Shown here piece after piece: positions 5,081 through 40,084 of a stretch of DNA of 44,477 bases. Source of the stretch: Acidimicrobiia bacterium (lineage in GTDB: Bacteria; Actinomycetota; Acidimicrobiia; Spongiisociales; ZC4RG35). The position numbers and the translations under genes were made by a program. A model generated the notes under the pieces. It was not told the origin of the DNA and made no database searches. It was given only the letters and a program-made list of their open reading frames with translations. Position 1 is the first letter of the stretch; each line of letters starts with the position of its first letter. The stretch lies in assembly GCA_025928935.1 (NCBI GenBank), contig JAICNB010000021.1, positions 1 through 44,477 on the forward strand, read 5' to 3'.

Positions 5081-5133
5081 TCGAAATTGGGACCGGGAGA
5101 TGCGACATTCGACACGGTGACTCCCAATTTCGA
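5081..5133. repeat. 53-bp palindromic element, copy A
   Basis: Two perfect 12-base arms (5081-5092, TCGAAATTGGGA, and its reverse complement at 5122-5133) flank a 29-base core. Total length is 53 bp. The arms and parts of the core match the element at 11259-11311. It covers the candidate start codons of the FAD oxidoreductase gene, and its right arm encodes the residues before the Rossmann motif. Confidence 0.75.
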
Positions 5134-11258: not shown

Positions 11259-11311
11259 TCGTAATTGGGACCACGAGGTGTCATATGCGAGGCTGCTGCT
11301 CCCAATTACGA
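11259..11311. repeat. 53-bp palindromic element, copy B
   Basis: Perfect 12-base arms (11259-11270, TCGTAATTGGGA, and its reverse complement at 11300-11311) flank a 29-base core. Compared with the element at 5081-5133 the total length is identical, the arms differ by one compensated base pair (A-T to T-A), and roughly half of the core bases match, including GAG-TG and CGA blocks at the same positions. It lies between the exporter permease stop and the TfoX-N start and may also act as a hairpin on the transcript. No T-run follows. Confidence 0.75.
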
Positions 11312-27592: not shown

Positions 27593-28581
27593 TCGAGAGT
27601 CTGGGCCGAGATCTCGCTGAGCCGAGCGATGTTGTGTGTCGCCTCCATGTACCGGATCGAACCCGTCTTGGAGCGCATGATCACCGAGTGGGTGACGACA
27701 TGGTCATCCCGTCGAAACTCGACCGCCTGCAGGTACTCGCCACCGGTTACCCCGGTGGCGGCGAAGAAGACGTTGTCGGATGACACCAATTCGGCGGTGC
27801 CCATGACCTGATTCAGGTCTAGACCCTCGTCCACTGCGGATTGGCGCTCCTCGTCGTTCCGGGGCCACAGCTTGCACTGCATCTCCCCCCCCATGCACTT
27901 GAGGGCGGCGGCCGCGATCACCGCCTCAGGGGAGCCACCGATGCCGAGGAGGACGTCGGCGGCGGTCTCCTCCTGGTTGGTGGCGATGGCGCCGGCCACA
28001 TCTCCGTCGCGGATCAGGGAGATGCGTGCCCCGGCTTGGCGCACCCCGTCGATGTAGTGCTGGTTCCGCTCCCGGTCGAGGATGAGCACCCTGAGGTCGT
28101 TGACCTCCTTGCGCTTCGCCTTGGCCACCTGGCGAAGGTTGTGATCGACCGGCGCTTCCAGCTCGATGGCCCCCGCCGCCTCGGGCCCCACTGCGATCTT
28201 GTCCATGTAGACCAGCGACCCGGGGGCATACATGGTGCCTCGCCCTTCGGCCAGGGCGATAACTGCGATCGCCCCCGGCATGCCGGAGGCGGTGAGGGTG
28301 GTCCCGTCGACCGGGTCGACGGCGACGTCCACCACCAGGCCCTGGCCGCTGCCCACCCGCTCGCCGTTGTAGAGCATCGGGGCCGAGTCCTTCTCACCCT
28401 CGCCGATCACCACCAGACCGTCGATGTCGAGGGTCGACAGATGGAGACGCATCCCATCGACCGCGGCTTGATCGGCGGCTTCCTTGTTGCCCCGCCCCAG
28501 CCAGCGGGCTGCCCCCATGGCGGCAGTCTCGGTGACCCGGACCAGGTCGAGGCCCAGGTTGCGCTCGACGGGCTCGGCCAT
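27589..28581 (-). CDS. glpX: Fructose-1,6-bisphosphatase class II (GlpX)
   Basis: A 330-residue class II FBPase that hydrolyses fructose-1,6-bisphosphate to fructose-6-phosphate in gluconeogenesis. Clear GlpX marks are GRGNKEAADQAAVDGMR at residue 30, the metal-binding Glu in IGEGEKDSAPML, VDPVDGTT, and ADVLLGIGGSPEAV. ATG at 28581 overlaps the thiolase stop by one base (TGATG). The same frame stays open for ~300 codons upstream, but that part is antisense-like noise inside the thiolase gene. Class II is the usual and often only FBPase of actinobacteria. Confidence 0.94.
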   Translation of the reverse strand: MAEPVERNLGLDLVRVTETAAMGAARWLGRGNKEAADQAAVDGMRLHLSTLDIDGLVVIGEGEKDSAPMLYNGERVGSGQGLVVDVAVDPVDGTTLTASGMPGAIAVIALAEGRGTMYAPGSLVYMDKIAVGPEAAGAIELEAPVDHNLRQVAKAKRKEVNDLRVLILDRERNQHYIDGVRQAGARISLIRDGDVAGAIATNQEETAADVLLGIGGSPEAVIAAAALKCMGGEMQCKLWPRNDEERQSAVDEGLDLNQVMGTAELVSSDNVFFAATGVTGGEYLQAVEFRRDDHVVTHSVIMRSKTGSIRYMEATHNIARLSEISAQTLD

Positions 28582-29762
28582 CAGGCCACCCTGACGATGA
28601 GCGCGTCGCCCTGCCCGCCACCTCCGCACAGGGTGGCGGCGCCGATGCCCCCGCCCCTGGCGTGGAGGGCGTTGACCAGGCTGACGACGAGTCGGGCCCC
28701 CGTGGCGCCGATCGGGTGGCCGAGGGCGACCGCCCCACCGTTCACGTTGACCTTGGAGTCCGGGATGTCCAGCATCCGCGCCGCCCAGAGCGACACTGCG
28801 GCGAATGCCTCGTTGATCTCGACGAGGTCGAGGTCGGCCACGTCCAATCCGGCACGCTTCAGGGCGACGTGCAGCGCCTCGGCGGGACGCTCGTGGAGGG
28901 TGGCGTCGATCCCGCCGATCTGCCCGTATCCGAGGATCTCGGCCACGATCGGTGCTCCGGACGCCTCGGCCGCCTCGCGGTCGGCGATGACCACGGCAGC
29001 GGCACCATCCGAGATCTGTGACGCGTTCCCGGCAGTGATCGTCCCGTCGGGAGTAAAGGCGGGCCGGAGGGCGGCCAGGGAATCGGCGGTCGAGCCCTCT
29101 CTGATGCCCTCGTCTCGTTCCACGACAACAGGATCCGACCTGGGCCGGGCCACCGTGACAGGAACGATCTCCTTGGCCATCGCCCCGGCGGCAGTGGCTT
29201 CCTCCGCCCGCTGGTGGCTGCGGGCCGCCCAGACGTCCTGTTCCTCCCGTCCGATCCCGAGACGCTGGTTCTTCAGGTCGGAAGACTCGCCCATCGTGCA
29301 GTGGTCGAAGGCACAGAAAAGCCCGTCGTGCTGCATCACGTCGATCATCTCGACGTTCCCGATGCGGGCACCCCATCGCAGCTCGCGTACGACGTGGGGC
29401 GCGTTGGACATGCTCTCCATCCCGCCGGCGACGGCGAACTTGGTGTCTCCGGACCGGATGGCCCTCTCTGCCAGGCCGATCGCCGACAGGCCGGACAGGC
29501 AAACCTTGTTGATGGTCACCGATGGCACCGTCATCGGTAGACCCCCTCGGACCGCCGCCTGCCGGGCCGTGATCTGGCCTTCTCCCGCCTGGAGGACGTG
29601 TCCGAACAAGACCTCGTCGACCGCCCCCGGGTCGACCTGACTTCGCTCGATGGCCCCGGCGATGGCGATGCCCCCGAGGTCGACGGCGCGAAGCGGGGCG
29701 AGCGCCCCTCCGTAGCGACCGATGGGCGTGCGGGCGATCCCGGTTATGACTGGGTTGCTCAC
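28581..29762 (-). CDS. Acetyl-CoA acetyltransferase (thiolase)
   Basis: A 393-residue thiolase, exactly the usual length. Catalytic residues are all present: Cys88 in TINKVCLSG, His349 in ALGHPIGATG and Cys379 in TLCGGGGQGDA. Asn-Glu-Ala-Phe of EINEAFAAVS is also conserved. The length and motifs fit biosynthetic acetoacetyl-CoA thiolase or degradative thiolase; the two cannot be told apart here. GTG at 29762 gives the normal N-terminus (SNPVITGIARTPIGRY); a GTG two codons upstream is possible. It is coupled to glpX and divergent from the methylmalonyl-CoA epimerase gene, with a 53-bp palindrome in between. Confidence 0.93.
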   Translation of the reverse strand: MSNPVITGIARTPIGRYGGALAPLRAVDLGGIAIAGAIERSQVDPGAVDEVLFGHVLQAGEGQITARQAAVRGGLPMTVPSVTINKVCLSGLSAIGLAERAIRSGDTKFAVAGGMESMSNAPHVVRELRWGARIGNVEMIDVMQHDGLFCAFDHCTMGESSDLKNQRLGIGREEQDVWAARSHQRAEEATAAGAMAKEIVPVTVARPRSDPVVVERDEGIREGSTADSLAALRPAFTPDGTITAGNASQISDGAAAVVIADREAAEASGAPIVAEILGYGQIGGIDATLHERPAEALHVALKRAGLDVADLDLVEINEAFAAVSLWAARMLDIPDSKVNVNGGAVALGHPIGATGARLVVSLVNALHARGGGIGAATLCGGGGQGDALIVRVA

Positions 29763-29791
29763 GGGCACGATGCTACCGGCGCCTCGACCCT

Positions 29792-29844
29792 CGAACCCAG
29801 GGTGGTGGCGGGCACCCCTCAGCGAAGTCCGCACCCTGGGTTCG
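29792..29844. repeat. 53-bp palindromic element, copy C (different arm sequence)
   Basis: Perfect 13-base arms (29792-29804, CGAACCCAGGGTG, and its reverse complement at 29832-29844) around a 27-base core; total 53 bp, the same length as the elements at 5081 and 11259. The sequence is otherwise unrelated to them. It fills most of the 100-base divergent gap between thiolase and methylmalonyl-CoA epimerase. Confidence 0.75.
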
Positions 29845-29862
29845 CGGTTTAGCCTCGTGCTC

Positions 29863-30270
29863 GTGAAGCTGCTGAATCTCGACCATGTCGGTATCGCGGT
29901 GACCGATCTGAATCGGGCGCTCGACGGGTACCGCGAGCGCTACGGGGTCGAGCCGCTCTACCGCGAGGTCGTAGCGGCCCAGGGTGTCGAGGAGGCCATG
30001 CTCCCTGTGGGAGGGTCCTTCGTGCAACTGCTCCGGCCGCTCGCGGCCGACACTCCGGTCGGCCGCTTCCTCGAGAAGAGGGGTGAGGGTCTTCACCATG
30101 TCGCATTCATGGTGGCCTCGATCGAGATCGCACTCGATCACATGCGTGAGCAGGGGGCCCGTCTCATCGACGAGGTGGCCCGGCCCGGCGGCCGGGGGGC
30201 CCGTATCGCCTTTGTCCACCCCGCCGACCTCGGTGGTACCTTGATCGAGCTGGTGGAGCTACCGGGATGA
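29863..30270 (+). CDS. mce: Methylmalonyl-CoA epimerase
   Basis: A 135-residue VOC-fold enzyme that interconverts (S)- and (R)-methylmalonyl-CoA in propionyl-CoA metabolism. Two beta-alpha-beta-beta-beta units are visible. The family metal ligands match: His8 in NLDHVGIAV, Gln in SFVQLL (about residue 57), His in EGLHHVAFMV (about residue 79) and Glu in TLIELVE near the end. GTG at 29863 gives the usual N-terminus; GTG at 29857 is also in frame. It overlaps the small gene downstream by four bases (ATGA). Confidence 0.93.
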   Translation: MKLLNLDHVGIAVTDLNRALDGYRERYGVEPLYREVVAAQGVEEAMLPVGGSFVQLLRPLAADTPVGRFLEKRGEGLHHVAFMVASIEIALDHMREQGARLIDEVARPGGRGARIAFVHPADLGGTLIELVELPG

Positions 30271-35072: not shown

Positions 35073-36079
35073 GCGACCGGGTAGTGGCCGTCGTGGGGGC
35101 CACGGGCGCGGTGGGCCGGACCATGAGGGCCATCCTCGAGTCGCGCAGCTTCCCGCTCGGATCCCTGCGTCTGCTTGCGTCGGCGCGCTCCGCCGGGTTG
35201 GTCGTGGATACCCGGTGGGGCGAGGTCGAAGTGGAGGACCTGTCGTCGGCGGACCCGGGCGGGATCGACATCGCCCTGTTCTCCGCTGGTGGGGACCGGT
35301 CGCGGGGTCACGCGCCGACCTTTGCCGAGGCGGGGGCCGTGGTCATCGACAACTCGTCGGCTTTTCGGATGGACCCGTCGGTCCCCCTCATCGTGGCCGG
35401 TGTCAACGACGCCGCGGTCGGCTCGCACCGGGGGATCATCGCCAACCCGAATTGCACCACGATGGCCCTGATGATGGCCGCGGGGCCCCTTCACCGGGCC
35501 GCGGGGCTGAGGACCATGGTCGCCACCTCATATCAGTCGGTCTCTGGCTCGGGACAACAGGGGGTGGTCGAGCTCATCGAGCAGACCGATCTGCTTCGTC
35601 CCGATCTCGAGTCCATGATGACCGGGGGCTGGGAGGACCCGAGCCCCACTCTCTACGCCCGGCCGATCGGGTTCAACGTCCTTCCTTATGCCGGATCAGA
35701 GACCGAGCAGGGCTACACCGACGAGGAGTGGAAGCTGGTCAACGAGTCCAGGAAGATCCTCGATCTCCCCGATCTCCTGGTGGAGCCGACCTGTGTTCGC
35801 GTCCCAACGCTGGTCGGGCACGGTGTGGCGGCCTCTCTCCGATTCGAGCGGCCGATCGATCCCGACGAGGCGGTGGAGATTCTCGGCTCAGCCCCCGGGG
35901 TGCAGGTGTGGACCGACAAAGTCCCCACCCCATTGGATTCGGCCGGCATCGACGACGTCCTGGTGGGAAGGGTCAGGCCGACCCTGGGCCAGCCCGGAGG
36001 CATCAACCTCTGGGTCGTTGGTGACAACCTGCGCAAGGGCGCCGCGTTGAACGCGGTCCAGATCGCCGAGCTCCTCTAG
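35069..36079 (+). CDS. asd: Aspartate-semialdehyde dehydrogenase
   Basis: A 336-residue enzyme that reduces aspartyl phosphate to the semialdehyde with NADPH. The nucleotide loop is VVGATGAVGRTM, the catalytic Cys lies in IIANPNCTTMALM, and the catalytic His is probably in LVGHGVAASLRF. The substrate-loop segment ATSYQSVSGSGQQG is also typical. TTG at 35069 overlaps the ask stop by four bases, the arrangement seen in other actinobacteria. Confidence 0.96.
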   Translation: MSDRVVAVVGATGAVGRTMRAILESRSFPLGSLRLLASARSAGLVVDTRWGEVEVEDLSSADPGGIDIALFSAGGDRSRGHAPTFAEAGAVVIDNSSAFRMDPSVPLIVAGVNDAAVGSHRGIIANPNCTTMALMMAAGPLHRAAGLRTMVATSYQSVSGSGQQGVVELIEQTDLLRPDLESMMTGGWEDPSPTLYARPIGFNVLPYAGSETEQGYTDEEWKLVNESRKILDLPDLLVEPTCVRVPTLVGHGVAASLRFERPIDPDEAVEILGSAPGVQVWTDKVPTPLDSAGIDDVLVGRVRPTLGQPGGINLWVVGDNLRKGAALNAVQIAELL

Positions 36080-36105
36080 CCGGGCTGCTTCGTCCCCGGA
36101 AGGGC

Positions 36106-36414
36106 TCAGAGGTCGGAGTCGCTCCTGAGCAGGGCCGACATGCGGCGCCGCAGGATGGGCGGGGCGTTCCTCAGCCCGAGATCGATGGCGAAATGGGCGT
36201 CGTCGGTGACGTCGAGGATGATCTCCTCACCTTCCGCTCGGACATGAAACCCGTCCGGCATCGCCGAGACCCGGACCTGGTCGCGGGCCCAGTCGCCGAC
36301 TTCGATATCCCCGGCGGTCATAATGAGCCGGTCGTCGGTCAGGTCGACCACGACGCTGATCGGCGCGTCATCCGTCCCACTCAGCCTGAGCTGGGCGTCA
36401 TAGGCGGTCATCAA
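36106..36414 (-). CDS. Small beta-rich protein, unknown function
   Basis: A 102-residue protein with alternating hydrophobic strands (RLIMTAGDIEVGDWARDQVRV, GFHVRAEGEEIILDVTD) that resemble a small beta-barrel or PH-like fold, and a short basic C-terminal helix. No family is firmly recognised. ATG at 36414 or 36411 (consecutive Met). It is convergent with asd, 26 bases apart, and its upstream region precedes the tRNA-Pro gene on the other strand. Confidence 0.7.
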   Translation of the reverse strand: MMTAYDAQLRLSGTDDAPISVVVDLTDDRLIMTAGDIEVGDWARDQVRVSAMPDGFHVRAEGEEIILDVTDDAHFAIDLGLRNAPPILRRRMSALLRSDSDL

Positions 36415-36538
36415 TTCCTCCCCTGCTGGGTCTTGCCTCCCCGATCAGGCTAAGCCAGGTTTGCCAATTGGGAAGGGCCTTCTTGGCTCCATCCGAGTGG
36501 GCTAGCGCGATTGCATCGCCTACCATTCGGCCCTCATT

Positions 36539-36612
36539 CGGGACGTGGCGCAGTTTGGTAGCGCGCAGCGTTCGGGACGCTGAGGTCGTGGGTTCGAATC
36601 CCGCCGTCCCGA
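36539..36612 (+). tRNA. tRNA-Pro (anticodon CGG)
   Basis: The 74-base cloverleaf is complete. Acceptor CGGGACG/CGTCCCG; D arm GCGC-AGTTTGGTA-GCGC; anticodon stem CAGCG/CGCTG with loop TTCGGGA and anticodon CGG at 36573-36575; T arm GTGGG-TTCGAAT-CCCGC. CCA is not encoded. The C1-G72 start pair fits bacterial tRNA-Pro. Confidence 0.96.
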
Positions 36613-36626
36613 CTCAGAAACCCCAG

Positions 36627-36654
36627 TCAGGGCCGTTCGAGAGGACGGCCCTGA
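36627..36654 (+). terminator. Hairpin downstream of tRNA-Pro
   Basis: TCAGGGCCGT (36627-36636) and ACGGCCCTGA (36645-36654) form a perfect 10-bp stem with an 8-base loop, followed by TTCGTTCGT. It is 14 bases after the tRNA and is probably its intrinsic terminator, with a weak T-tract. Confidence 0.6.
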
Positions 36655-36722
36655 TTCGTTCGTGGGACTCCCGAGGCGTGGGCGAGGTCCTCCCCGACGT
36701 CCAGGCCGGCGCCGAGTGTTGG

Positions 36723-37991
36723 TCATGAAGTGTGCAGCGGAGGTGGCCTGCCGGACACCTCTCTGCTGCCAATCAGCTCGTAAATCGCCAGCTCGGTCTT
36801 GCCTTTGACGGGGATGGTGCCTCTGGCCTTGAGTTCGTAGCGGTCCTTGAGACAGTCGTAGACTTGCTGACTGACCTGAATCATGCCTGGTTCACTTGTC
36901 GATTCCATGCGGCTGGCGGTATTGACTGTGTCTCCCCAGAGGTCGTAACTGAATTTCCGCTTCCCGAGGACGCCAGCCATGACGGGGCCCGTGTGCAGGC
37001 CAAACCTCATTTGCACTCCCCGCAAGCCAGGAAAGCCGTGATTCTTCACCTCCTCTCGCATGCTCAGGACTGCGTCGGCCGCCGATCGAGTGTGGTGCTG
37101 GCCGTCTCTCTCCAGGCCGGCGACGGCGAAGTAGCTGTCACCAACGGTCTTGATCTTTTCCAGACCGTGCTCGTCGACGATGTCATCAAAAGACGAAAAG
37201 AGGCCGTCGAGTGTCGTGACCAGGTCCATGGCGGTCAGTCTTTCGGCTATCGCTGTCGATCCGACGATGTCTGCGAACAGGACTGTGACCTCGGACTTCT
37301 GATCGGCTATTGGGTATTCGCCAGCCTGTAGCCGCCTGGCGATGTCAGCTGGAAGGATGTTCAACAGAAGCTGTTCCGACCGTTTGTTGGCTTCCGTCAA
37401 CTCCGTCTCTGCTCTCTCGGCGAGGCGTCGTTGATACCAGACGACAGCGACGACGAAGGCGACCATCCCGGCGAACGACGCCGCAATCAGCGCGTCCTCG
37501 ATCCAGGTCCCGGCCACGTCTGGAGCGACGGGTGGGTTCAAAACCACCAGTAACGCGTAGACGAGAATCGCCAGAGCCACGACGATCCAACGCAGGGCAA
37601 GGCTCTTGACATCGGTCACGAAGACCGCCCCCATCGCCACGGCCGTCAGGAAGACGGCTGGTCCGGTGCGGAACCCAACAGTGAGACTGACTGCGGCGAT
37701 ATTCAACAGACCGGTAACCAGCAGTAAACCAGCCGCAGTCTCATGACGCCCGCGCCAGTTCAGAGCAAGGGTCAGCACGTAACCAGCGAGATACACCATC
37801 AGGAGTCCCAGGTATGCCCACAGGGAAACTCTCTGTTCGGGTCGGGCCGGAAGAAACAGAATGGCGAAGAACGCGTTGAGGGCAAATGCGACCATGGCGA
37901 CGACATTGATGGTCCTGATACGCCGCTGTTCAGAAGGCGATTGACCATCAGCAACACCAAGCCCGGTCAATCGGCCAATAGCCCAACCCAT
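36723..37991 (-). CDS. Membrane-anchored class III adenylate cyclase
   Basis: A 422-residue protein. Six TM helices (about residues 28-187) are followed by a short coiled-coil-like signalling helix (LAERAETELTEANKRSEQLL) and a cyclase homology domain (about 232-410). Metal Asp241 (VLFADIVGST) and Asp285 (TVGDSY) are present. Lys281 and Asp350 (YDLWGDTVNTASR) are the residues that select ATP, and Asn357/Arg361 complete the active site, so cAMP synthesis is expected. Hand counts on two 60-base lines of this gene give 55-57% GC against about 66% in the ask gene, and codon third positions are poorer in G/C; this suggests transfer. It lies just after tRNA-Pro. Confidence 0.9.
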   Translation of the reverse strand: MGWAIGRLTGLGVADGQSPSEQRRIRTINVVAMVAFALNAFFAILFLPARPEQRVSLWAYLGLLMVYLAGYVLTLALNWRGRHETAAGLLLVTGLLNIAAVSLTVGFRTGPAVFLTAVAMGAVFVTDVKSLALRWIVVALAILVYALLVVLNPPVAPDVAGTWIEDALIAASFAGMVAFVVAVVWYQRRLAERAETELTEANKRSEQLLLNILPADIARRLQAGEYPIADQKSEVTVLFADIVGSTAIAERLTAMDLVTTLDGLFSSFDDIVDEHGLEKIKTVGDSYFAVAGLERDGQHHTRSAADAVLSMREEVKNHGFPGLRGVQMRFGLHTGPVMAGVLGKRKFSYDLWGDTVNTASRMESTSEPGMIQVSQQVYDCLKDRYELKARGTIPVKGKTELAIYELIGSREVSGRPPPLHTS

Positions 37992-38302
37992 ATTCCAAAC
38001 CTAACCATCACAGCCCGGCCGGGATCGGCCCTTCAGGGGTGGGTGGTCGTGGAGCACCAATCGTCGACGCAAGCATTTGATACCGCGGACGGGGGTGCGT
38101 CGCCGTCACGGCTGGTAGAAGCTTGGGCCTCCCAATTCAGATTCGTCAGCCACAGCCCCCATTTGCCTCCATGAGCCGATCCCAGACCGACGGCGAGGCA
38201 GAGGAGAAACGATCTCCTCGCTATTTGGAGTCGGTGCGGAGGTGAGGACTTCTGGCTCTGGTCACCGGCTCCCGCTCATGTGAGGCTCGCACTGAGGAAC
38301 AT
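37992..38302. other. Divergent intergenic region without a recognised gene
   Basis: 311 bases between the adenylate cyclase and the CPBP gene, which point away from each other. No RNA gene, repeat or convincing ORF was seen on either strand. It must hold both promoters. A GAGG ribosome-site-like sequence precedes the CPBP ATG. Confidence 0.6.
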
Positions 38303-39235
38303 ATGGTTAGCGCGTCTGAAGTCGACGCTTCTGCAGGTCGTGTTCGCACCATCGTCTGGGCGGTGTTCTCCCTCGTGGCGTTGCTGTTGTTGAACATCGA
38401 CAACCTGGCCTTGTGGACCGGTCTGGTGGTCCCCTCGGCGCTGCTGGTCGCACTCATCCCAGGACTCCGACCCAGCGTCAGCTTCAGAGGCGTCGACGGT
38501 CGGGACCTGCTTGTGATCGGCGCCTCGTATGCCGCGGTGGTTGGGCTGTTTCGTGTGGCGTTCACCGTATTCACCACCGACAATGTCCTCGGGCTGTTCC
38601 TTTCATTCGGCTTCGCCCTGGTAATCGGCGTGGTGGGCCCGATCGTCTACCAGGTTTGGATGCGAGGCCGGGACCTCCGGTCCCTCGGGCTGGGCTTTCA
38701 CGGGCTGCGAGCCACATTGATGCTGGGCTCAGCTTTCGCCGCCATCCAGTTCGCTTCGACCCTATGGGGCTATCACCTTCCCGCCCCGGTCGAATGGTTG
38801 CCGTTGCTGGTCATGTCCCTTGTCGTGGGGCTTTTCGAGGCAATCTTCTTCCGAGGATTCATCCAGGGCCGTCTCGAAGAAAGCTTCGGCGTCATCCCGG
38901 CCGTTGGTGGGGCAGCGCTTCTCTATGCGCTATACCACGTCGGCTACGGGATGCCCGCCGGCGACATGTGGTTCTTGTTCGGCCTCGGTGTCCTCTACGC
39001 CATCATCTTCCGACTGACCACCAACATCCTGATTTTGTGGCCGTTGCTCACACCTCTTGGGGCCTTTTTCAACAATCTTCAGGCAGGAGACATCGAGTTG
39101 CCTTGGGAGTCGATCCTCGGCTTTGCCGACGTGGCCATCGTCATGGCTATGGCCGTCTGGCTGGCCCATCGACACATCCGCAAACGTGCCCACCCTGCGG
39201 CCCGTGGGCGTTCAAGAGAGGAGGCATTGACATGA
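38303..39235 (+). CDS. CPBP (CAAX/bacteriocin-processing) family membrane protein with altered active site
   Basis: A 310-residue protein with about eight TM helices and an ABI/CPBP domain in the C-terminal half. Motif 1, normally EExxxR, reads Glu179-Ala180-IFF-Arg184. Motif 2 (YxxxH) has His212 in ALYHVGYG. Motif 3 keeps Asn257/258 (AFFNN), but its usual His is absent. The second Glu of motif 1 and the third-motif His are both normally catalytic, so it may be a non-proteolytic family member. Its stop overlaps the next start (ATGA), with a strong AGGAGG before it. Confidence 0.82.
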   Translation: MVSASEVDASAGRVRTIVWAVFSLVALLLLNIDNLALWTGLVVPSALLVALIPGLRPSVSFRGVDGRDLLVIGASYAAVVGLFRVAFTVFTTDNVLGLFLSFGFALVIGVVGPIVYQVWMRGRDLRSLGLGFHGLRATLMLGSAFAAIQFASTLWGYHLPAPVEWLPLLVMSLVVGLFEAIFFRGFIQGRLEESFGVIPAVGGAALLYALYHVGYGMPAGDMWFLFGLGVLYAIIFRLTTNILILWPLLTPLGAFFNNLQAGDIELPWESILGFADVAIVMAMAVWLAHRHIRKRAHPAARGRSREEALT

Positions 39236-39459
39236 GAACCCTCTCGAGGAAGCTGCCGACCGGAGTAAAGGCAGCGCTGCTCGCCGGATTGGGCATCACC
39301 GCCGCCACGCTGATTGTCAACGCTCGGCGCGATCTCGCAGCCCGCGGCTCTTCGTCGATTCGTGGCAAGTCCGAGGTGTGGGACCAGGCAACGAGACTCC
39401 CCGGAGGCGTGACCGTTTTTCCAGTTGCCGGCCATAGCTCAGAGCGAAAGTCGGCATAG
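39232..39459 (+). CDS. Small single-pass membrane protein, 75 residues
   Basis: It begins MRTLSRKLPTGVKAALLAGL and has one hydrophobic helix (about residues 13-29) after a basic N-terminus, then a polar tail ending GHSSERKSA. AGGAGG lies seven bases before the ATG, and the start overlaps the CPBP gene stop by four bases, so expression is coupled. No family was recognised. As a partner of a CPBP protein it could be a substrate, a regulator or an accessory subunit. Confidence 0.65.
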   Translation: MRTLSRKLPTGVKAALLAGLGITAATLIVNARRDLAARGSSSIRGKSEVWDQATRLPGGVTVFPVAGHSSERKSA

Positions 39460-39565
39460 AAGGTCTTCCGACCCTGGGCCTCCCACTCGCCCGTGAATAC
39501 CTTCGGGGCCGAGATGAGAGTCGTGCTTATGAGCAGAACATCTCGGTCACACATCAGTGAGTCCC

Positions 39566-40084
39566 ATGGGTGATCAGGACTCGACCAACCTGGCGGACCG
39601 GGCGTTTGCCCTTCGACCAGTGCTCACAACATGGGCACTCACTATCGGAGTTGATCTCTTCTTCAACGCGGGTGTGTTCATGTCGCTCTTCGATCAGGAG
39701 CGGGAGCCGGGTCTTCTTTCCGACGAGCAGCTCTTTAGTCGTATCCCAGTGGCGTACTTGGCGCTTCTGGCCGGTGTGACCGCTCTGGCGTGGCTCCTCG
39801 ACAGGATCGGCGTTGCGGATGTGCGTCGTGGCATCGGCGTGGGAGCCCTCACAGGGACGACCTTCGCGGTGATGGGAGTGGTCTTCCTCTGGACCGCCCT
39901 CGAGATGACGGGAGTATTTGTGCTCGCGGGTTCGCTGGTGGTGATTATCGAGTTTGCCGCCGCGGGTTGGGTGTTGTCGGCATTCCGGGCCTCCCCCGAC
40001 GCAGCGCGTCTCACCCGCCGAATCGTTCTGATCGCCCTGCTCTGCGCCCTCGCTGGCATGGTCATCCAGAACCTCCAGGGCTGA
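39566..40084 (+). CDS. Four-helix membrane protein, unknown function
   Basis: A 172-residue integral membrane protein with four predicted TM helices (about residues 24-40, 62-78, 90-116, 120-138) and a short C-terminal hydrophobic segment. ATG at 39566 is chosen; GTG at 39557 is also in frame. No family motif was recognised. It lies ~106 bases downstream of the small membrane protein gene and may form one transcript with it and CPBP. Confidence 0.65.
   Translation: MGDQDSTNLADRAFALRPVLTTWALTIGVDLFFNAGVFMSLFDQEREPGLLSDEQLFSRIPVAYLALLAGVTALAWLLDRIGVADVRRGIGVGALTGTTFAVMGVVFLWTALEMTGVFVLAGSLVVIIEFAAAGWVLSAFRASPDAARLTRRIVLIALLCALAGMVIQNLQG

Follow-up and report, generated by a model that had tools for sequence, protein, structure and literature searches.

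The window analysed here, a stretch of 44,477 nucleotides from an Acidimicrobiia bacterium, carries a thiolase gene and a glyoxalase-fold, methylmalonyl-CoA epimerase-like gene that diverge from a 100-bp gap, and a palindrome sits within this gap (Table 1). The name "epimerase" comes from a preliminary description of this DNA; Pfam assigns the product to Glyoxalase_4. The position between the two divergent genes, the perfect 13-bp arms, the 27-nt core and the total length of 53 bp (29792-29844), all given in that description, were borne out, and the arms lengthen to 29789-29847 if one mismatch is allowed. Both gene starts are kept in the congeneric genomes G001 and G002, and the TAGNNT box that lies 7 bp ahead of each start codon suggests that both transcripts are leaderless. 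A search of positions 29600-30000 with 4227 Rfam models matched no family at E values up to 1. We rejected a Rho-independent terminator, as no gene ends at the locus and no T-run follows the arms. Elsewhere in the window, Rfam identified a tRNA gene at 36539-36612, within the lowest-GC stretch (0.615 for 36001-40000).

Table 1 Features of the thiolase/epimerase-like locus and the two other 53-bp elements (window coordinates)
Feature	Coordinates	Strand	Remarks
Family A element	5081..5133		one of the other two 53-bp elements
Family A element	11259..11311		second of the other two
Thiolase gene	28581..29762	-	GTG start 29762; PF00108, PF02803
TAGCAT, putative -10-like box	29770..29775	-	7 bp before thiolase start; kept in G001, G002, L107, L114
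Left arm CGAACCCAGGGTG	29792..29804	+	holds near-palindrome ACCCAGGGT (29795-29803)
Family G element, 51 bp (49 bp in the canonical form)	29793..29843		GAACCCAGGG ... CCCTGGGTTC
Core	29805..29831		reverse complement has GGACTTCGCTGAG, common to G002 ortholog and C79 copy
Right arm CACCCTGGGTTCG	29832..29844	+	holds ACCCTGGGT (29833-29841)
TAGCCT, putative -10-like box	29850..29855	+	7 bp before epimerase-like start; kept in G001, G002, L107, L109, L114
Epimerase-like gene	29863..30270	+	GTG start 29863; Pfam Glyoxalase_4

As an isolated inverted repeat, the palindrome is not rare and by itself hardly goes beyond chance. In third-order Markov simulations of the window, inverted repeats with perfect arms of at least 13 bp and a gap between 3 and 120 averaged 0.35 per window and were present in 57 of 200 windows. 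Although these numbers would allow a chance inverted repeat, we give that explanation practically no credence, since it is refuted by an orthologous canonical copy in G002 and by homologous copies in many genomes. It is these homologues and this conservation, not the palindrome by itself, that establish the element as real.

The preliminary description had read the element as the third of three independent palindromes with identical geometry and had proposed that their length is fixed at 53 bp, irrespective of sequence, by whatever recognizes them. Three span-53 palindromes in one window are indeed improbable (0.015 expected with arms of at least 12, three observed). However, this improbability is valid only if the three are independent, and the other two turned out to be relatives of each other, members of what we call family A, with 12-bp arms and 29-nt cores. 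The third belongs to a family of 49 bp, referred to here as family G. The suggested check for a peak at 53 bp was run on a 636-kb sample, about one fifth of this genome, and gave no peak beyond the window: among the 75 palindromes whose arms matched perfectly over at least 11 bp, spans of 32 (five) and 51 (four) were commoner than a span of 53 (three), and all three of the latter were in the window, with none in the rest of the sample. The 636-kb length distribution and family G's own 49 bp rule out a shared 53-bp length, and a system that fixes palindromes at this length whatever their sequence is very improbable. The 53-bp length of the window palindrome is a coincidence; it arises because the match happens to run one base pair beyond the family G arms.

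Two palindrome families

Family G has the form GAACCCWGGG-N29-CCCWGGGTTC; it canonically measures 49 bp and has its arm centres 36 bp apart. Each arm carries the near-palindrome GAACCCWGGG(TTC), and the core varies among species. The window copy has both inverted arms but is 51 bp long, with arm centres 38 bp apart, while its ortholog in G002 has 49 bp. We counted it as family G despite its length because the orthology with the G002 copy is direct; the window palindrome is a slightly damaged copy of this family. It also matched a covariance model (E 4.1e-7) that was built from 46 sequences including the window copy itself. The same arms recur at two other places in this genome, C42 and C79, and the C79 copy is intact. 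At C42 (L052:728-1705, G000) the copy lies inside an open reading frame, within the linker between XdhC and YHS domains, and might be the mark of a fusion of two genes via the repeat.

The pattern GAACCCAGGG-N-CCCTGGG was found in 20 of 60 genomes, this one included and nearly all of them Acidimicrobiia, with zero control matches and, among the matches listed, almost always one spacing. Genomes held up to about 31 exact family G copies. Stretches of G036, G003 and G043, picked for carrying such copies, gave 49 bp for 36 of 36 matches with the gap left free between 22 and 36. A survey of 84,980 species genomes found 91 stretches with the 49-bp pattern; the spacer was fixed at 29 in this survey, which is therefore uninformative on length, as are the loci picked from it. 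Of these 91, the 80 stretches listed came predominantly from MAGs of Acidimicrobiia or Actinomycetota, and a single listed stretch apiece came from assemblies with the labels Zixiibacteriota, Neobacillus, Cyanobacteria, Leptolyngbya and Acidobacteria.

Family A is defined as TCGWAATTGGGA-N29-TCCCAATTWCGA, with a canonical span of 53 bp. A search for AATTGGGA-N-TCCCAATT with spacers of 15-45 allowed returned 34 copies from this genome; the spacer was 29 in 33 of them and 30 in one, and a reversed-pattern control had no matches. The family A pattern was present in only two of the 60 genomes searched, this genome and G001 (15 copies). The window palindrome was rejected as a member: it has neither the arms TCGWAATTGGGA and TCCCAATTWCGA nor a core near AGnTGnCATATGCGnCnCT. 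The earlier proposals that several sequence families exist and that length is fixed are thus upheld within families (33 of 34 family A copies at 53 bp, all family G matches in the three genomes at 49 bp), but there is no common 53 bp. No palindrome family of fixed span emerged from a de novo search of G053 and G015 (200 kb per genome). Such families are therefore not universal, with the proviso that sparse ones could be missed in samples of this size.

Members of both families lie mostly 3-15 bp past stop codons, as judged with a purpose-made gene caller on which all gene contexts rest. For family A, 37 of 40 stop-codon distances fell within -6 to +15 bp, and the 31 copies flanked by genes on both sides comprised 18 codirectional, 11 convergent and 2 divergent cases; for comparison, 33 of 91 gaps of at least 50 bp in this genome's sample are divergent. 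Family G in public genomes (n=86) was similarly found in 42 codirectional, 29 convergent and 15 divergent gaps, and the window copy falls in this last, minority class. The orientation of cores relative to genes had no clear bias (same/opposite: 12/6 in family A, 4/3 in G036, 5/5 in G003). At window position 5081, the right arm of the family A element lies within the first codons of the downstream frame (GTG 5117; MTPNFDVVVVGSGSAG by eye), and the element appears from this overlap to supply the start of the downstream gene.

Comparison with known repeats

REP elements, as described in PMC3733652, are GTAG- or CGTC-tagged palindromes of 20-40 bp that lie mostly between convergent or codirectional genes, at most 20 bp from gene 3' ends; some occur in reading frames, and a clade may hold several families. 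GTAG REPs are associated with a RAYT, and CGTC REPs are said to be without one. Families G and A resemble REPs in being short non-coding palindromes with many copies next to gene 3' ends, although the window copy, in a divergent gap, differs from them in placement. Unlike REPs, they measure 49 or 53 bp. Neither tag was adjacent to the arms in any of 252 family G flanks or 66 family A flanks, and the flanks of the window copy, which was outside the family G tag set, show neither GTAG nor CGTC beside the arms. The RAYT domain (Y1 transposase, PF01797) was found in 0 of 13 genomes, among them G000, G002, G003, G036 and G043, with 5 of 14 controls positive. Identity with the REP/RAYT system was accordingly rejected on end tag, length and transposase.

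REPINs share further traits with these elements: in PMC8049555 they are described as a diverse spacer flanked by two inverted ends, each a palindrome in its own right, and their populations persist at orthologous positions. The families described here likewise have two inverted, palindromic ends around a spacer and persist at orthologous positions, but they differ in lacking a RAYT, in a nearly fixed spacer length, in ends of 10-13 bp and in cores that are similar within a genome. RAYT-dependent spread as in REPINs was rejected, no RAYT having been found in the 13 genomes searched. The C42 copy within a reading frame recalls Rickettsia palindromic elements (as described in PMC3733652), from which the families differ in that nearly all other copies are intergenic and carry no CGTC tag. 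MITEs, given as 70-300 bp in the same paper, are similarly short, non-coding and numerous with inverted-repeat ends; our elements are shorter, and an unsystematic look met no parent transposon or target duplication. Searching the literature for the arm sequences as literal text gave no family G arm among the 15 matches listed of 156, which had only AATTGGGAC and titles unrelated to these bacteria, and nothing relevant was found on palindromic repeats in Acidimicrobiia or on REPs with concerted evolution in Actinobacteria. Family G is apparently an undescribed REP-like palindrome family, of which the window copy is a real but ordinary member.

Orthologous sites in congeneric genomes

At the orthologous thiolase/epimerase-like locus, G002 has a canonical 49-bp copy and G001 has a shorter gap without one; the gap is also without the element in the more distant L107, L109 and L114. 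The window copy differs from that of G002 by a 1-bp deletion at one side of its core and a 3-bp insertion at the other, giving 51 bp. The epimerase-like protein is 84% identical to that of G002 and 90% identical to that of G001, which makes G002 the more distant congener. Since the copy is present in the more distant genome and absent from the closer one, the simplest history is a gain before the split followed by a loss in G001.

Other sites also differ between these genomes. By synteny, worn family G copies at C4 and C46 stand opposite intact or nearly intact copies in G002. At C82:28443, a family A copy lies opposite a family G copy of G002. The family A copy at window position 5081 follows the end of a gene that in G002 is followed by a member of family G, with different flanking DNA on the far side. 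A covariance search at E values of at most 0.012 placed family G at three sites here, nine in G002 and none in G001, with two weaker matches each in this genome and G002; only 150 candidates per genome were scored, and the worn C4 and C46 copies escaped detection. Three congeneric genomes thus hold family G only, family A only or both, and repeat turnover can be followed among them. We infer that family A, the common family in this genome, has largely replaced family G, whose copies are decaying. Some doubt about decay arises because the arms of the window copy are still perfect and the C79 copy is intact; furthermore, one arm pair of the window copy has changed on both sides relative to G002 (T-A to G-C), which could reflect upkeep.

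For family A, this genome was aligned with G001. In G001 stretches chosen for holding family A copies, a choice that biases these figures, all 15 aligned sites were filled in G001, 4 of 224 arm columns differed compared to 138 of 1008 flank columns (one aligned pair, L239, was left out of this count), and cores diverged about as much as flanks (0.167 versus 0.137). As a less biased comparison, exact orthologs in this genome were found for at least 12 of the 15 exact copies of G001, while about 10% would be expected, by our own arithmetic, if arms diverged like flanks. The three sites without an exact G001 match (L238:2002, L240 and L243) are also filled, by worn copies.

Possible recognition of the arms and turnover of the cores

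We considered whether the elements are read as DNA or as RNA. Across genera, 84.4% of cells in the two halves were paired compared to 74.4% in shuffles, and 137 cells had changes on both sides compared to 64.7. This covariation fits a folded RNA or a symmetric protein site with a drifting preference and does not decide between them. Within genomes, variable core positions paired no better than shuffles, a result that speaks against base-by-base conservation of a hairpin. In the copies of this genome, G036 and G003, the core halves showed below-chance complementarity at several positions, as though two types of half existed. Most steps in tandem arrays separate the arm centres by 35-36 bp, even where the linkers are unrelated (L117 and L119), and the other steps are 25, 26, 48 and 61. 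L177, L186, L198 and L221 have arrays of at least three arms with exact 36-bp steps. Together with the lack of a core pairing excess within genomes, this spacing, seen in few cases, favours a reading of DNA at fixed distance.

An RNA hairpin at mRNA ends that terminates transcription bidirectionally or stabilizes the message, a role suggested for REPs, would agree with the covariation across genera, with the location of copies past stop codons and in convergent gaps, and with the strong folds predicted for 29789-29847 (-35.3 kcal/mol) and for a G036 copy (-53.1 kcal/mol). We nevertheless regard it as quite unlikely: the window copy is upstream of both genes, where leaderless starts would leave it outside the messages, the listed flanks have no T-run after the arms, L221 has an ordinary hairpin with a T-run between the stop codon and the array, and the within-genome pairing excess is missing. 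A local operator, in which the ACCCWGGGT pair binds a regulator of the two divergent promoters, is also unlikely, if somewhat easier to defend. The gap is a divergent promoter region, each arm is itself near-palindromic, the only two ACCCWGGGT sites in the window are in this palindrome, and the C79 copy lies upstream of an isochorismatase-family gene with the same arm-to-box spacing, GGGTTCGCGGTTTAGCCTC. However, G001 keeps both genes and both boxes without the element, most family members are past stop codons and not in promoters, and the family is scattered over genomes with differing neighbouring genes.

We therefore favour, with reasonable confidence, the reading of the window element as a worn family G copy, REP-like and probably protein-recognized, that would be a passenger in the divergent gap and play no essential part there. 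It is supported by the C42 and C79 homologues, the spread and uniform length of the family in other genomes, the canonical G002 ortholog with its small length differences, and the worn or swapped sites; counted against it, no partner protein was found. In this scenario, family G and like elements are or were the target of a protein that recognizes the two arms a set distance apart. The elements would spread and persist as REP or REPIN populations do, mostly in low-harm spots just past stop codons, a preference that is not absolute given the C42 copy within a reading frame. Family A would have become the common family in this lineage while family G copies decay, and the window copy would be tolerated between two divergent, probably leaderless promoters.

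Cores may change in concert. At four positions shared by G036 and G043, the paired copies have arms equal at 25 or 26 of 26 letters and flanks 88-95% alike, but only 6-11 of 23 core letters are equal; one of the four pairs (L122:15646) has weaker flank evidence. Core likeness is 0.85 within G036, 0.65 within G043 and 0.44 between them. Concerted core change is seen in this one genus pair only. Families G and A could conceivably be successive versions of one DNA-level Acidimicrobiia system, with fixed spacing, long-lived 3'-end elements, concerted cores and exchangeable arms, and with the window copy as a fossil, a proposal that we consider tentative and rather doubtful. If it is true, a protein binds inverted arm pairs at a fixed helical spacing (36 bp in family G), and a change of partner protein allows one arm sequence to be swapped for another at existing sites.

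An apparent length rule has thus led to two defined repeat families in a poorly studied class rich in uncultured members, in which short palindromes can retain their span and arm sequences while the cores change from one species to the next. Should the arms be protein sites, their binding partner would be a well-defined target. On its own, the window copy matters little; the families merit more attention. Orthologous elements with equal arms and species-specific cores are found at L120 in G036 and L130 in G043, and positions 1552-1702 of L120 also hold a match to the glmS ribozyme (Rfam, 78.6 bits).
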